The notes under the pieces: model-generated
What the model was told of the DNA's origin: nothing
The model's input: only the letters and a program-made list of their open reading frames with translations
Database searches by the model: none
Made by a program: the position numbers and the translations under genes
Assembly: GCA_947176505.1 (NCBI GenBank)
Contig: CAMWQW010000005.1
Span: 1-64,000 of the forward strand
DNA length: 64,000 bases
Source: an uncultured Lachnospiraceae bacterium
Lineage (GTDB): Bacteria > Bacillota > Clostridia > Lachnospirales > Lachnospiraceae
Direction of reading: 5' to 3'
Shown: in pieces, positions 33,048-38,033 of the stretch
Layout of the letters: every line of letters starts with the position of its first letter
Numbering within the stretch: position 1 is the stretch's first letter

Positions 33048-33908
33048 ATGGATAAACTCTTAATCATTGATGGCAGCAATCTGCTGTTTCAGATGTTTTA
33101 TGGAATGCCGGCAAGAATTGTGAACGGTGAGGGCAAAGCTATTCAGGGAACGCTCGGTTTTGTAGGAGCCATGCTCAAAATTATTCGCAGGACGGAGCCT
33201 TCCCATATTATTGCGGTGTTTGACGGAGAGCATGAGAATAAGCGGTGTGAGCTTAATCCGGAATACAAAGCCAACAGAGCCGACTATAGTCAGGTAAGTG
33301 AGGAAGAGAACCCTTTTTCACAGTTACCGGATGTATATGATGCATTACGTTTTCTTGGGATAAAATACATAGAAACGACAGACTGTGAAGCGGATGATCT
33401 AATCGCAAGTTATGCCATGTCATTCGGACAGGATGCGGAAGTGATTATTTCATCGTTCGACAGTGATTTTTTCCAACTGATTTCGGACAAGATATCCATA
33501 CTCCGATATCGTGGTGAAAAAACCATGATTTGTACACCGGAATTTATCGCAGATAAATATGGTATTGCACCACGGCAATATGCCGATTTCAAATCGCTCG
33601 TAGGAGATTATGCGGATAATATTAAAGGCGCGGAAAAAGTCGGACCGAAGACAGCGGCGGCACTGCTTGGTGAGTTTATGACTTTGGAAAATATTCTTAT
33701 GCACATTGAAGATATTAAGAAACCTTCTATACAAGGGTCCATTAAGCGAAACGCTGACAGGCTTAAGGTAAATTATCAAATGATAAAGCTGGGAAAAACG
33801 GAGGCGTTACCATATGGCAAGCAGGAGTTGGATTATTGTTATGACGGCATTACAACGAGCGAAGTACTGAAAGGGATTGGACTGAAAGGAAAGGGTAGAA
33901 ATACATAA
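33048..33908 (+). CDS. 5'-3' exonuclease / flap endonuclease (Pol I N-terminal type)
   Basis: 286 residues, the usual size of stand-alone 5'-3' exonucleases. Metal-binding acidic residues are recognisable in LLIIDGSNLLF, IAVFDGEH, ETTDCEADDLIASYA and IISSFDSDFFQLI, and the helix-hairpin-helix in DNIKGAEKVGPKTAAALL. It removes RNA primers and flaps and substitutes for the Pol I domain. The stop overlaps the methyltransferase start by one base (TAATG). Confidence 0.93.
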   Translation: MDKLLIIDGSNLLFQMFYGMPARIVNGEGKAIQGTLGFVGAMLKIIRRTEPSHIIAVFDGEHENKRCELNPEYKANRADYSQVSEEENPFSQLPDVYDALRFLGIKYIETTDCEADDLIASYAMSFGQDAEVIISSFDSDFFQLISDKISILRYRGEKTMICTPEFIADKYGIAPRQYADFKSLVGDYADNIKGAEKVGPKTAAALLGEFMTLENILMHIEDIKKPSIQGSIKRNADRLKVNYQMIKLGKTEALPYGKQELDYCYDGITTSEVLKGIGLKGKGRNT

Positions 33909-34678
33909 TGGAAAATGATGAAATTATAAAGACAAACAAGACATATTGGAACGACCATGCGGATTTATGGTTCGGAACGACGGCGCTTCCGGAGTACGGT
34001 GTCCTGTTTCCGACGGAGGACGATTTGCACCTGTTCGGAGATGTGACGGATAAGAGGATGTTGGAAATCTGCTGCGGAAGCGGACATTCGCTGAAATACC
34101 ACGCCGAGCGGGGCGCAGGAGAGCTATGGGGCGTTGATTTATCATGCAAGCAGCTTGAAAATGCGCAAAAGCTACTGAGTGAGAGCGGATATTTTGCGAA
34201 ACTGCTGTGTGCAAAGATGGAAGAGGAAATCGACGTTCCGAAAGAGTACTTTGACTATGTATATTCCATCTACGGAATCGGATGGACGACTGATTTGCAG
34301 GGAACATTCGACAAGATTGCGTCATACCTGAAAAAGGACGGTATTTTTATATTCAGTTGGCACCATACTTTGAACTACTGTATTGCATGGTCATGTGATG
34401 AAAGAAAGGATGTTTTTGAGAATGATAAGCTTGTTTTGACGAAAAGTTATTATGACGAATCATACTTTAAAATGCCGGTACATGACAGTGAGATTATTCT
34501 TTGCAACAGGAAAATATCGACGTATATCAATGCCTTGGCAAAAGCGGGATTTGCCATTGAGCGGCTTATTGAGGAGACGGACGAGCAAACGTTATATGCG
34601 CAGGGAGAAACTGACCCTAAGGCTAAGAAAGCGAAAATGATGCCGATTTCATTTTGTATCAAAGCAAGGAAAATGTAA
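33908..34678 (+). CDS. Class I SAM-dependent methyltransferase
   Basis: 256 residues. Motif I is MLEICCGSGHSLKYHAERGA (residues 54-73), followed by LWGVDLSCKQLENAQKLL (motif II) and DYVYSIYGIGWTTDL (motif IV). Family methyltransf_11/25-like; the acceptor cannot be told from sequence. The gene is coupled to the exonuclease. The promoter of the leader-controlled MutS2-like gene lies immediately after its stop. Confidence 0.9.
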   Translation: MENDEIIKTNKTYWNDHADLWFGTTALPEYGVLFPTEDDLHLFGDVTDKRMLEICCGSGHSLKYHAERGAGELWGVDLSCKQLENAQKLLSESGYFAKLLCAKMEEEIDVPKEYFDYVYSIYGIGWTTDLQGTFDKIASYLKKDGIFIFSWHHTLNYCIAWSCDERKDVFENDKLVLTKSYYDESYFKMPVHDSEIILCNRKISTYINALAKAGFAIERLIEETDEQTLYAQGETDPKAKKAKMMPISFCIKARKM

Positions 34679-34685
34679 TAGGTAC

Positions 34686-34714
34686 TTGCTTCAAAATACA
34701 TGATGATGTATAAT
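34686..34714 (+). promoter_or_regulatory. Sigma-A promoter of attenuated mutS2-like gene
   Basis: -35 TTGCTT (34686-34691), 17-base spacer, -10 TATAAT (34709-34714). It drives a leader of about 400 nucleotides. Confidence 0.85.
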
Positions 34715-34740
34715 GAATAAAAATTTTAGGAGGATTTTGC

Positions 34741-34779
34741 ATGTTAAGTGTTATTGTAATGGAGAAAATTGCAAAGTAA
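34741..34779 (+). CDS. 12-residue leader peptide MLSVIVMEKIAK
   Basis: A good AGGAGG (34729-34734) is placed seven bases before the ATG. The 12-codon frame ends in TAA and is followed by several inverted repeats: ATTGCAA/TTGCAAT overlaps its stop, and ATTGACA/TGTCAAT follows. Downstream lie two terminators. This is the architecture of ribosome-stalling leaders before antibiotic-resistance genes, where stalling on the leader alters RNA pairing and allows read-through. The peptide itself was not recognised from a known leader family. Confidence 0.75.
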   Translation: MLSVIVMEKIAK

Positions 34780-34904
34780 ATATTGCAATGGCGGCTTTTA
34801 GTTTTAGGCTGGGAGTCTGCCCGTTTATTGACAGCATATGTTGTCAATAGTTTCGCCTTACAATTGCTTAATATTGTGGTAACTATATTTTTCGTAATGA
34901 TATG

Positions 34905-34931
34905 AGCATGACTGTACGGTCATGCTTTTTT
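34905..34931 (+). terminator. Attenuator terminator 1
   Basis: AGCATGAC (34905-34912) pairs with GTCATGCT (34919-34926), followed by six to seven T. It lies between the leader peptide and the gene it precedes, so it must be bypassed for expression. Confidence 0.88.
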
Positions 34932-34959
34932 GTTGCCGAACGGTAATCATATAGAAATG

Positions 34960-35006
34960 AAAAGACCATGGTATCTTAATGCACTTAGGGTACGCATGGT
35001 CTTTTT
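34960..35006 (+). terminator. Attenuator terminator 2
   Basis: AAAAGACCATG (34960-34970) and CATGGTCTTTT (34995-35005) pair perfectly and the loop can extend the stem through GTA/TAC. A T-run is part of the right arm. A second barrier before the MutS2-like gene. Confidence 0.82.
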
Positions 35007-35116
35007 GTATTATAAGGCGGCACTATCTGACTTATATCCTGCCAGTATATGTTTTTGTGTGGAAACATGGATGAAAGCGATAAAATAGCGCGAGTTCGTA
35101 GAAGGAGATATGATAA

Positions 35117-37021
35117 ATGAATATTGAGAAACAAATTGAATTTGATAAAGTCAAAGCTATATGGGCTGACTTAGCGGTTACCGATTGGGCAAAAGAAAAA
35201 ATCATGGAAACTTCCTTAATTTTTTCAGAAAATGAGTTAAGAAAACAGTTAAGGGATACAACGAATGCGAGATGTCTGATTGAGAAACTCGGTACACCGC
35301 CTTTACAAAATATTTCTGAGATGAAGGAGATTCTGCTGATTGCACAAAAGGGTGACTGCCTGACGCCGTATCAACTGGAGCGGGTAGAAAAAGTCTTGGT
35401 GGCAATAAAACGTTTGAAAGATTACTTGGAAAAAGGCAAGACATACAATAATTCTCTGGCTTACTATGAAGAAAATCTGGATGCAGTAAATGAATTACGA
35501 GAAGAGATATGCGTGAAAATCAGAAATGGCGCTGTGGATGATCACGCATCAAAAGAGCTATGGCAGATACGAAATCAAATCATAAAATGTGAGGAACAGA
35601 TGAAGCAGAAGGCGGAACAAGTCATGCGTTCAAACAAGGAGTGTATGTCGGATAACTACTGTACGCTTAGAAACGGGCGAGTATGTATTCCTGTGAAAAA
35701 GGAATATAAACTTAAGATATCCGGTAGCGTCATTGACAAATCTTCTACAGGAAGCACACTTTTCATCGAGCCGGCAGGCGCAGCAAAGCATTATGAGGAA
35801 CTGCAATTACTTAAAATAAGTGAAGAAAACGAAGTGTATCGTATCTTATATACTTTATCGGCAATGGTAACGGCGTCATCCCTAGCGCTTCATGAAAATT
35901 TGTTGATGATTGAAAAGTTGGATTTTATATTGTCAAAAGGCAAACTGAGTATTGATATGGATGCAACAGAGCCGGCTATCAACACGGAGCGTAGGATTAT
36001 ATTTTCGGACGCAAGGCATCCTTTGATGGATAGAAATATCGCAGTGCCATTACAATTTGACATCGGCAGGAAGGTACGCGGTATTATCATAACCGGACCT
36101 AATACGGGAGGGAAAACGGTAGCTATTAAAACCGTTATGCTAAATTGTATCATGGCACAGTGCGGCTTACATGTTACATGCAAAAACGCAGATATTTGCA
36201 TGAACAGCGCCTACCTATGCGACATAGGAGACGGGCAGAATCTGTCTGAAAATCTCTCGACGTTTTCTGCACATATCACGAATGTGCTGGAAGTGATAAG
36301 CGAAGTGAACAAGGACAGCTTTGTTATTTTGGACGAACTGGGTTCAGGAACGGACCCTACGGAGGGAATGGGGATTGCAATCGCGATATTAGAGGAGCTT
36401 AGAAAAAGCGGTGCGATTTTCCTAGTGACAACTCATTATCCGGAAGTCAAAGAATATGCGGATAAGGAGGAGGATATCGTCAATGCGAGAATGACTTTTG
36501 ATAAGGAAACATTAAGCCCCACATATCAGATGGTAATCGGTGAAGCGGGCGAAAGCTGCGCATTCTATATCGCAGACAGGCTGGGGATGCCAAGCGAAAT
36601 GTTGAAGGTGGCAATTTGTGCCGCATATGGCGAAGACGCAGTGGACTCTTATCAATTTAGAAATGCAGAGCGTACTATTGTGAAGAGAAATACGCCGAAG
36701 ATTTCAAAAACAAAAAAGACAAAGAGTAGTGCAGACTTTAGTACAAAGTATAGAATAGGAGACAGCGTAATGGTTTATCCGGAGAAAAAAATCGGAATAG
36801 TGTGCGCTCCGATTAATGAAAAAGGCGTATTGCGAGTACAGCTTCCGAATAAGAAGATATGGATTAATCATAAGCGGGTTAAGCTTCATGTGGCGGCGAC
36901 GGAGCTCTATCCGGAGGATTATGATTTCTCGATTATATTTGAGACTGTCGAAAATCGTAAAAAGCGGCATGATATGCAGAGAAAATATACGGATGATGTG
37001 GTGGTGGAATCAACGGAGTAA
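35117..37021 (+). CDS. MutS2-like ATPase without Smr domain
   Basis: 634 residues, ribosome binding site AGAAGGAGAT. Residues 1-290 are the MutS2-type lever and clamp helices; the ATPase carries Walker A GPNTGGKT (327-334), STFSAHITN (381-389), Walker B ILDELGSGTDP (404-414) and TTH (438-440). Residues about 550-600 resemble the KOW-like segment of MutS2. Full MutS2 is near 780 residues and ends in an Smr nuclease domain, which is absent here. MutS2 (RqcU) in Bacillus splits collided ribosomes. Together with the leader and attenuators this suggests an induced ribosome-rescue or antibiotic-tolerance factor rather than mismatch repair. That role is inference. Confidence 0.88.
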   Translation: MNIEKQIEFDKVKAIWADLAVTDWAKEKIMETSLIFSENELRKQLRDTTNARCLIEKLGTPPLQNISEMKEILLIAQKGDCLTPYQLERVEKVLVAIKRLKDYLEKGKTYNNSLAYYEENLDAVNELREEICVKIRNGAVDDHASKELWQIRNQIIKCEEQMKQKAEQVMRSNKECMSDNYCTLRNGRVCIPVKKEYKLKISGSVIDKSSTGSTLFIEPAGAAKHYEELQLLKISEENEVYRILYTLSAMVTASSLALHENLLMIEKLDFILSKGKLSIDMDATEPAINTERRIIFSDARHPLMDRNIAVPLQFDIGRKVRGIIITGPNTGGKTVAIKTVMLNCIMAQCGLHVTCKNADICMNSAYLCDIGDGQNLSENLSTFSAHITNVLEVISEVNKDSFVILDELGSGTDPTEGMGIAIAILEELRKSGAIFLVTTHYPEVKEYADKEEDIVNARMTFDKETLSPTYQMVIGEAGESCAFYIADRLGMPSEMLKVAICAAYGEDAVDSYQFRNAERTIVKRNTPKISKTKKTKSSADFSTKYRIGDSVMVYPEKKIGIVCAPINEKGVLRVQLPNKKIWINHKRVKLHVAATELYPEDYDFSIIFETVENRKKRHDMQRKYTDDVVVESTE

Positions 37022-37097: not shown

Positions 37098-37220
37098 TTG
37101 ACTTTCCATTTTGTGCTTGCTAGAATAAAAGCACAAAGAAAGTTTACCACTGACCGATATGTGGTATATAAAGGGTCGGGTTGAAAGTATAGTCCTTCGC
37201 CGTAAGGTGGGGGACTTTTT
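37098..37220 (+). promoter_or_regulatory. Promoter and structured leader before LytTR regulator gene
   Basis: -35 TTGACT (37098-37103), 17-base spacer, -10 TAGAAT (37121-37126). The 5' leader is about 180 nucleotides and contains AGTCC (37191-37195) pairing with GGACT (37212-37216) followed by TTTTT, with CCTT/AAGG inside, a terminator-like structure ahead of the gene at 37314. No known riboswitch class was recognised. Confidence 0.6.
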
Positions 37221-37313: not shown

Positions 37314-38033
37314 ATGCTGCATATAGCAGTCTGTGATGACGATACGAAGGCGGTACAAACACATAAGCAAATTGCAGAGGAATGTTTAAGACAGTGTGGG
37401 AGCATTGGTGAGATCAATGCCTATACTGACAGTGAAAATCTGCTCTATGATATTGCCGAGGATAAATTTTACTTTGATTTGATACTGTTAGATATAGAGA
37501 TGCCCGGCAGCAGCGGTATGGAGCTGGCGGATAAAATCAAACCTTATCTTCCGAATGCAAAGATTATCTTTATCACTTCCCATATTGAATATGCCATAGA
37601 CGCATTTGAGCTGGCGGTATTCCGCTATGTACCGAAAAATGATATAGGGAAGAGACTCCCGGCAGCGATACAAGATGCCATCAAACTGATTCTGATTGAA
37701 GATGGCAAGACCTATACGATTCAGACTAACAGCCGACTTGAGAAAATTCCTTATAAGGAGATTTACTATATTGAGCGTGACGGAAAGAATGCCAGTATTA
37801 CCGCTGACAGTGGGATATCAAAGGTACGCAAGAGTCTGGGGCAGGTTTACGAAGAGTTGGGAGCGGAGGAATTTATTTATATCGATAGAGGCTGTATCGT
37901 CAACATAATACATATTATGCAGGTCAGGGACGGTATGGCAATCTTGAAAAACGGTGCATCGCTTCCGATTAGCCGTTCCCATTTGCAAGAAGTAAAAGAG
38001 CGTATTAATATTTATTGGGGGACACATATATGA
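37314..38033 (+). CDS. AgrA/VirR-type response regulator (LytTR DNA-binding)
   Basis: 239 residues. Receiver with CDDD pocket and phospho-acceptor D60 (ILLDIEMPGSSG), then a LytTR domain (about 138-235: IPYKEIYYIERDGKNASI, FIYIDRGCIVNIIHI, LPISRSHLQEVKERI). LytTR regulators bind direct repeats and control bacteriocin, virulence and quorum-sensing genes. The kinase gene overlaps the stop by four bases. No agrB/agrD genes are present in the window. Confidence 0.95.
   Translation: MLHIAVCDDDTKAVQTHKQIAEECLRQCGSIGEINAYTDSENLLYDIAEDKFYFDLILLDIEMPGSSGMELADKIKPYLPNAKIIFITSHIEYAIDAFELAVFRYVPKNDIGKRLPAAIQDAIKLILIEDGKTYTIQTNSRLEKIPYKEIYYIERDGKNASITADSGISKVRKSLGQVYEELGAEEFIYIDRGCIVNIIHIMQVRDGMAILKNGASLPISRSHLQEVKERINIYWGTHI

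Follow-up and report, generated by a model that had tools for sequence, protein, structure and literature searches.

A conserved leader peptide, a long-range RNA helix and two terminators precede an accessory Smr-less MutS2 paralogue in Lachnospiraceae: a candidate drug-responsive ribosome rescue gene

The window analysed in this work is a stretch of 64,000 nucleotides from an uncultured Lachnospiraceae bacterium (contig CAMWQW010000005.1, assembly GCA_947176505.1), and the locus under study, at positions 34686 to 37021, carries a short leader frame, two intrinsic terminators and the gene of a MutS2 paralogue that lacks the Smr domain, all on the + strand. It begins with a sigma-70-type promoter, TTGCTT-17-TATAAT (34686..34714), whose -35 box lies at 34686-34691 and whose -10 box, after a 17-nt spacer, lies at 34709-34714. 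The automated scan did not list this promoter because the -35 box is weak, with 3/6 consensus positions; in many relatives TTGAC..TATAAT or TACAAT gives a promoter reading in the same place. The Shine-Dalgarno sequence AGGAGG (34728..34733), which alignments A1 and A2 show to be mostly conserved, is followed by the leader open reading frame (ORF) MLSVIVMEKIAK* (34741..34779), which starts with ATG at 34741, has 12 codons and ends with TAA at 34777-34779 (ATG TTA AGT GTT ATT GTA ATG GAG AAA ATT GCA AAG TAA). Terminator T1 (attenuator 1, 34904..34931), detected by the scan and in the fold, consists of a hairpin at 34904-34927 and a U run. Terminator T2 (attenuator 2, ~34960..35006, GACCATGG..CATGGTCTTTTT) is clear in the sequence and the RNA fold and recurs in many relatives; owing to its long loop it is absent from the list of the scan. 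The gene, an ORF of 634 codons with a TIGR01069 match, lies behind both terminators (35117..37021). An earlier note, made from the letters of the window alone, had named the promoter, the AGGAGG, the 12-codon frame, the two terminators and the gene, and the sequence and the fold confirmed every one of them.

Comparison of the product with the TIGR01069 mutS2 model gave 528 bits against a cut-off of 400, the match covering only positions 3-507 of the 790 of the profile. The MutS_V ATPase domain (36083..36613) is the sole Pfam domain above cut-off, and its Walker A (GPNTGGKT) and Walker B (DE) motifs are invariant in the 43 sequences of alignment A4, one of which is the full MutS2 of the same genome. 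This full MutS2, encoded separately, has 791 residues with MutS_V, MSSS and Smr, and served as a positive control: the search that detected Smr (PF01713) in it found none in the window protein. The earlier description of a MutS2 homologue with intact ATPase motifs and no Smr is thereby upheld. For a putative KOW/SH3-like domain (36743..36892), HHalign gave a remote match to the corresponding MSSS/KOW region in full-length MutS2 (probability 77, E 2e-5, with 34 of the 42 Smr-less sequences, those that showed the motif, compared against four full MutS2); it is without a Pfam match, and the AlphaFold model has five strands there, with moderate predicted local distance difference test (pLDDT) values. 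Where Smr would be, alignment revealed a conserved C-terminal tail, LYPEDYDFSIIFETVENRKKRHDMQRKY (36902..36991), with the consensus LYPxDYDFSIIFDTVENRK.., and a related tail is present in the Bacilli homologues. The domain make-up of the predicted product is thus a core, a clamp and an ATPase region, then the putative KOW-like domain and the new tail, without Smr.

The AlphaFold model (mean pLDDT 73.6) found its best solved match in the integrative YABR-MUTS2 model 9a5o; next came 7qv3, which is Bacillus subtilis MutS2 on the collided disome (E 6.5e-38), and 9kce, Thermotoga MutS2 (target-normalised TM 0.87). With B. subtilis MutS2 the window protein shares the core/lever, the clamp, the ABC ATPase with intact Walker motifs and, putatively, the KOW-like domain, at 28-35% identity in the aligned structures, but it lacks Smr and the long coiled-coil linker, has the new tail, and is an accessory protein beside a full MutS2, with a leader and terminators before its gene. 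A tree of 52 sequences placed the nine full-length MutS2 in one clade (100/100) and the 43 Smr-less copies across that branch. KamC (NF052383, the lysine 5,6-aminomutase reactivase ATPase) is likewise described by a MutS-type ATPase model, of 508 positions, but the window protein reaches 212.8 bits with it, below the cut-off of 300. Since the Smr-less gene was found in just 62 of 299 family genomes (E <= 1e-100; one of them, G084, at 33% identity), it was regarded as an accessory gene.

Relatives of the gene were collected from genome contigs, with culturable carriers such as Eubacterium uniforme ATCC 35992 and Parablautia muri in the collection; the best 80 of 128 confirmed were kept, and as one of these (L029) begins inside the gene, 79 loci were usable. 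In 72 of the 79, a ribosome-binding site and a short frame precede the gene, and six of the seven loci without it stop at a contig edge. The same leader before homologues, which the earlier note had called for, is thus present, and a frame that is not conserved is excluded. Altogether 105 leaders were assembled from the genome-contig loci and whole-genome matches, with at least four repeats since the collections share genomes. Their start codons are ATG (91), TTG (13) and GTG (1), and their lengths range from 6 to 14 codons with the frame kept. Codon 2 is L in 99/105 and codon 4 is V in 91/105, counts that lean towards the peptide patterns by which most of the leaders were selected; two later model matches (L141 and L146) start with MTSIV. 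Variation at codon 4 falls mainly on the third base (entropy 0.63 / 0.23 / 1.58 by base position). The start codons, lengths and third-base pattern point to translation of the peptide, with the first four or five residues as probably the important ones.

Folding of the free RNA gave an energy z of -5.0 for 34714-34935 and of -6.5 for 34714-35020, and in both cases none of the shuffles was as good. The minimum-energy structure pairs leader codons 1-8 (the P1 5' strand, 34741..34763) with CCTTACAATTGCTTAATAT (the P1 3' strand, 34856..34874), about 110 nt downstream, forming the long-range helix P1 around three inner hairpins: A (ATTGCAA/TTGCAAT, 34768..34789), which spans the leader stop codon, B (34790..34823) and C (ATTGACA/TGTCAAT, 34825..34850), in which several pairs are changed on both sides in relatives. 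In the structure-guided alignment of 82 leaders (A3), P1 is paired in 87.7% of cells versus 30.6-46.5% when slid by 1-3 columns, a double change occurs at 9 of its 18 pairs (29 double-change cells), and its covariation score is 0.120 versus 0.018-0.043 for the slid controls. It is on this column-wise test, not on a duplex test, that the evidence for P1 rests.

A predicted antiterminator (34866..34907), given by the folding model only, pairs GCTTAATATTGTGG with a stretch ending ATATGAGC and overlaps the 5' arm of T1. When nucleotides 1-30 were masked, as by a ribosome near codon 5, the mean pairing of the antiterminator strand in 48 leaders rose from 0.13 to 0.63, exceeding 0.5 in 38/48 masked versus 4/48 free leaders, and the mean trapping of the T1 5' arm rose from 0.33 to 0.72. 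Counts from a simple T1 finder, which took inner hairpins for T1 in some leaders, were left unused. Both hairpins that the earlier note had set in competition (A and C) are present, but they stand side by side in one domain and are mutually compatible; in the model, the competition is between P1 and the antiterminator, which would recruit the P1 3' strand and so capture the 5' arm of T1. T2 is a second barrier, and read-through at T2 is the part that the proposed switch leaves unaccounted for.

Two covariance models of the leader were constructed, the first from 36 leaders and blind to the gene, the second (R2) from 82. The first matched in 33/299 family genomes and R2 in 45/397, at 49 places. 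Downstream of these 49 places lie the Smr-less MutS2 gene (40), an ABC exporter or a GNAT acetyltransferase (7) or a contig end (2). The Smr-less gene is the next large frame at 35 of the 49, including one place (L089) that shows just the first codons before the contig end and one (L146) with the gene in two frames. Intervening genes were found at five places, in the order ABC ATPase-permease-permease-gene (3), GNAT-gene (1) and methyltransferase-gene (1). In the stretch read, the gene is missing at places with an ABC trio (4, one cut by the contig end), a truncated ABC gene (1) or a GNAT alone (2). Four genomes (G131, G136, G349 and G381) have two model leaders before different operons, and in G321 a model leader precedes the ABC trio while the Smr-less gene lies elsewhere behind the frame MLIVSEHGA, recognised by its peptide motif. 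In the genome of the window, the window copy is the sole accepted match; the next-best one (E 0.25), which sits in an open frame, was taken as chance. The search of the class gave matches in 2/391 genomes, both Lachnospiraceae, and a search of plasmid DNA gave no match.

The upstream DNA of 25 places with the gene and without a model hit was also analysed, two of which (L157, with 108 nt to the contig end, and L158) were set aside; at least one of the 23 remaining loci (L173) belongs to a genome already counted (L078). A frame starting ML[SINTR][VAI] occurs within 850 nt upstream in 20/23, whereas the reverse strand gave 0, shuffles 0.8 and tiles of the window 4/148, the true leader included. 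These data bear on the possibility that the element is a riboswitch or a protein-binding RNA with an incidental short ORF. The three-hairpin domain with its conserved bases is compatible with that explanation, which we nevertheless hold to be highly improbable given that starts are just ATG, TTG or GTG, that length changes stay in frame, that codon 4 drifts at its third base, and that the peptide start persists in those 20 of the 23 loci. Searches of the window against Rfam gave 0 matches at gathering score, and a further comparison gave three matches of E 1-4.4, all far below the gathering scores.

The genes behind the leader also bear on an amino-acid attenuator, in which the leader would sense scarce charged Val, Ile or Leu tRNA and the gene would answer starvation-stalled ribosomes. 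Leu at codon 2 and Val at codon 4 are indeed near fixed, Ile or Val is frequent at codon 5, and starvation stalls ribosomes too. Nevertheless, the leaders contain no reiterated codons of one amino acid, the short forms MLSVVR and MLSVVK having two Val only; the motif sits at codons 1-5; other families carry MSV.., MSVSYLA and MTTGVLN; and the 47 readable model matches precede the MutS2 paralogue, an ABC exporter, a GNAT or a methyltransferase and no biosynthesis genes. An attenuator of this kind is accordingly considered unlikely.

Outside Lachnospiraceae, the survey of the class gave a MutS2-type match in 227/245 genomes. Among best-matching loci only, 19 Smr-less copies of 610-717 residues were found in 10 other families, and in 16 of these the genome has a second MutS2-type match. 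At least one terminator lies upstream of all 19, and two or more upstream of 15 (median fold z -4.8), compared with a terminator upstream of 3/9 full-length MutS2 loci and two or more upstream of 2/9 (fold z -1.5). A short upstream frame, such as MSVLSVKVINN, MSVSYLA, MLEVVLNK or MSVVSI, is present in 19/19 Smr-less loci, and the same frame pattern occurs in 0/9 full-length MutS2 loci and 25/380 shuffles. The ML[SINTR][VAI] motif, which also matches 1/8 full-length MutS2 loci, is scarce in the other families; the upstream frames there are of other types. In six Bacilli-related Smr-less records (L204-L209) the related tail occurs together with one or more terminators and a short leader frame (MLGVVLN, MSVNVLN, MTTGVLN, MSVVGI, MSVAGI). 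Three of them are from Cytobacillus (one) and Paenibacillus (two), and the other three are contigs with phage labels, namely an almost identical, unverified pair labelled Enterococcus phage and one labelled Listeria phage; the unverified phage-labelled contigs may be host DNA. In the Cytobacillus and both Paenibacillus records GTTCTTAAC of the frame is exactly complementary to the downstream GTTAAGAAC.

The conserved leader, P1, the terminators, the link to the gene and its domain make-up are direct observations on the DNA; the antiterminator comes from modelling, and leader translation, stalling, drug induction and action on ribosomes are inferred. Conservation, covariation and recurrence across families strongly support a translated leader with attenuation and the gene behind it, which agrees with the logic of erm and ABC-F leaders invoked in the earlier note. 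It is likely, in our judgement, that a ribosome-sensing transcription attenuator controls here an accessory paralogue of MutS2 with ribosomes stalled by drugs as its target, and the stress sensed is probably an antibiotic. In the proposed mechanism, a ribosome free of stress would complete the short leader, leaving codons 1-8 to pair with 34856-34874 as P1; the antiterminator strand would then be sequestered, T1 would form, and T2 would act as backup. A translation inhibitor that arrests the ribosome early in the leader, on its opening codons (ML[SI]V..), would block P1, and the released strand would pair with the T1 5' arm, so that RNA polymerase would read through into the gene. The product would bind stalled ribosomes and split or clear them with ATP, conferring tolerance, and in relatives the same switch may drive the ABC exporter, the GNAT or the methyltransferase.

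Both drug induction and a part in rescue or resistance would be in keeping, by analogy, with the MutS2 family and these recurrent partners. PMC10897456 reports that deletion of mutS2 makes B. subtilis hypersensitive to chloramphenicol, tetracycline and erythromycin and not to carbenicillin, that a mutation in Walker B has the same effect as the deletion, so that the ATPase is essential, that Smr and KOW mutants are just modestly sensitive (mildly on erythromycin), and that MutS2 splits disomes with ATP. Since the deletion is hypersensitive to those drugs, a drug-induced extra dose of MutS2 would make sense, and since the ATPase is essential whereas mutation of Smr or KOW has only a modest effect, the Smr-less copy is plausibly still functional.

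Alternatively, the leader may sense a drug as proposed while the protein, rather than splitting ribosomes, protects or modifies them, dislodging the drug in the manner of antibiotic resistance (ARE) ABC-F proteins. The missing Smr, the new conserved tail, the ABC-type ATPase and a kind of leader known from cplR and msrD (PMC10201436, PMC10314930) all favour this variant. Against it, the nearest solved relatives are disome-splitting MutS2 and an ABC-F domain is wanting: of the two ABC_tran domains expected as the ARE ABC-F hallmark, none was found in the window protein, which has MutS_V instead. We regard protection as a possible, though clearly the less probable, mode of action. That the paralogue acts on DNA, in anti-recombination or repair, and is merely induced by stress is very unlikely; it belongs to the MutS family, and older literature (PMC3200294) assigns MutS2 a DNA role, yet the protein has no Smr and no Pfam domain other than MutS_V above cut-off, and the leader type, the partners and the B. 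subtilis ribosome data point to translation inhibitors.

Several points weigh against an attenuator that controls a factor acting on drug-stalled ribosomes. Smr, which aids recruitment of MutS2 in B. subtilis, is absent from the window protein. The peptide is without one constant stall motif; positions 3 and 5 vary, and no single drug class could be fitted to it. One locus (L020) carries the gene without a leader in 1.5 kb upstream, and no ML[SINTR][VAI] frame was found upstream of the gene at L158, the copy of G084 at 33% identity. This motif was partly widened after viewing the loci, an earlier-fixed pattern matching 12/23, and it fails outside the family, with 3/21 class-wide Smr-less loci of which one (L175) is Lachnospiraceae; the frame pattern for the other families is post hoc, having been written after viewing those loci. 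Both R2 and the first model (R1) were trained on leaders of the Smr-less MutS2 gene, and alignment A3 was fitted to a model already holding part of P1, which biases it toward P1. A test for duplexes between leader codons and the DNA downstream, with shuffled DNA as the control, gave a weak signal in the 105 leaders (median z -1.2; z < -2 in 28; all 60 shuffles beaten in 16). The antiterminator model is one of equilibrium, not co-transcriptional, folding of the nascent RNA, its 48 leaders were picked out of the 105 for a canonical 3' strand and T1, and the window itself is only average in antiterminator pairing (0.62) and below the mean of 0.72 in trapping of the T1 arm (0.57).

Among known systems, the cplR and msrD leaders of ARE ABC-F genes are the nearest precedents for the regulation; they likewise have a very short upstream ORF (uORF) and an intrinsic terminator, and the cplR uORF lies in a hairpin (PMC10201436, PMC10314930). 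The peptides there are MR[I/M] for cplR, MIN for vmlR (cited in them) and MYLIFM for msrD versus ML[SI]V.. in the window family, and the window differs further in its two terminators, its long-range helix around three hairpins and its MutS2-type product. In Escherichia coli toiL-topAI (PMC12121999), too, the uORF pairs far downstream, stalling by several drug classes frees the strand, and tylosin stalling is suggested at Val5; toiL, however, acts on the translation and the Rho-dependent termination of a toxin-antitoxin operon, whereas the window has an intrinsic terminator ahead of a putative rescue gene. No leader-controlled MutS2 was found in the open-access literature, and the word 'mutS' is absent from the text of the attenuator survey PMC2965389. 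Leader attenuators and rescue by MutS2 are both established; what was not found described in that literature is a subfamily of Smr-less MutS2 that has leaders of its own.

The finding joins collision rescue by MutS2 with drug-sensing leader peptides and, if true, gut Firmicutes possess an unrecognised inducible tolerance factor. More tentatively, and at rather less than even confidence, Smr-less MutS2 could be a third family of inducible ATPases for ribosome protection or rescue in resistance, beside the TetM-type GTPases and the ARE ABC-Fs, present in Clostridia and Bacilli, typically with its own drug-sensing leader, and in Lachnospiraceae within a leader-defined regulon with the ABC exporter, GNAT and methyltransferase. 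The leader offers a ready reporter for the signal sensed, and the Smr-less architecture is a natural experiment on the MutS2 domains that are required on stalled ribosomes. The leader model is a search tool, which led to the ABC exporter and to acetyltransferases that resemble further members of the same response.

The ABC exporter trio stands behind the leader, with or without the MutS2 paralogue, at L030, L033, L046, L084, L118, L138, L140, L142, L144 and L148; in the first four, which are genome-contig loci, it lies between leader and gene. Its ATPase is closest to DrrA, below the DrrA cut-off, and one permease is ABC2_membrane_6 (PF06182); the trio may be regarded as a second candidate drug-response operon. 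The gene immediately after the leader is a GNAT, by itself or followed by the paralogue, at L117 (G131), L116 (G166), L113, L047, L071 and L082, and for the GNATs of L015, L071, L106 (= L116) and L117 no cut-off of a named family was reached. One family of class I S-adenosylmethionine (SAM) methyltransferases (235-268 residues) was found before or after the paralogue, at L061, L064, L066, L068, L070, L072 and L074 and at L011, L015, L018, L023 and L025. NCBIfam searches with eight partner proteins reached no cut-off among the matches listed (the best 25 of 188 for the ABC ATPase, the best 25 of 33 for the methyltransferase).

Just upstream of the locus, a stand-alone 5'-3' exonuclease of the PolA N-terminal type (33048-33908) overlaps a SAM methyltransferase (33908-34678), and the pair is probably a transcript separate from the leader-gene unit. 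This methyltransferase was rejected as a part of the operon, as it fell outside the cluster of the operon methyltransferase found in the relatives. Downstream of the gene, a strong terminator-like hairpin at 37191-37216 precedes a LytTR response regulator at 37314.

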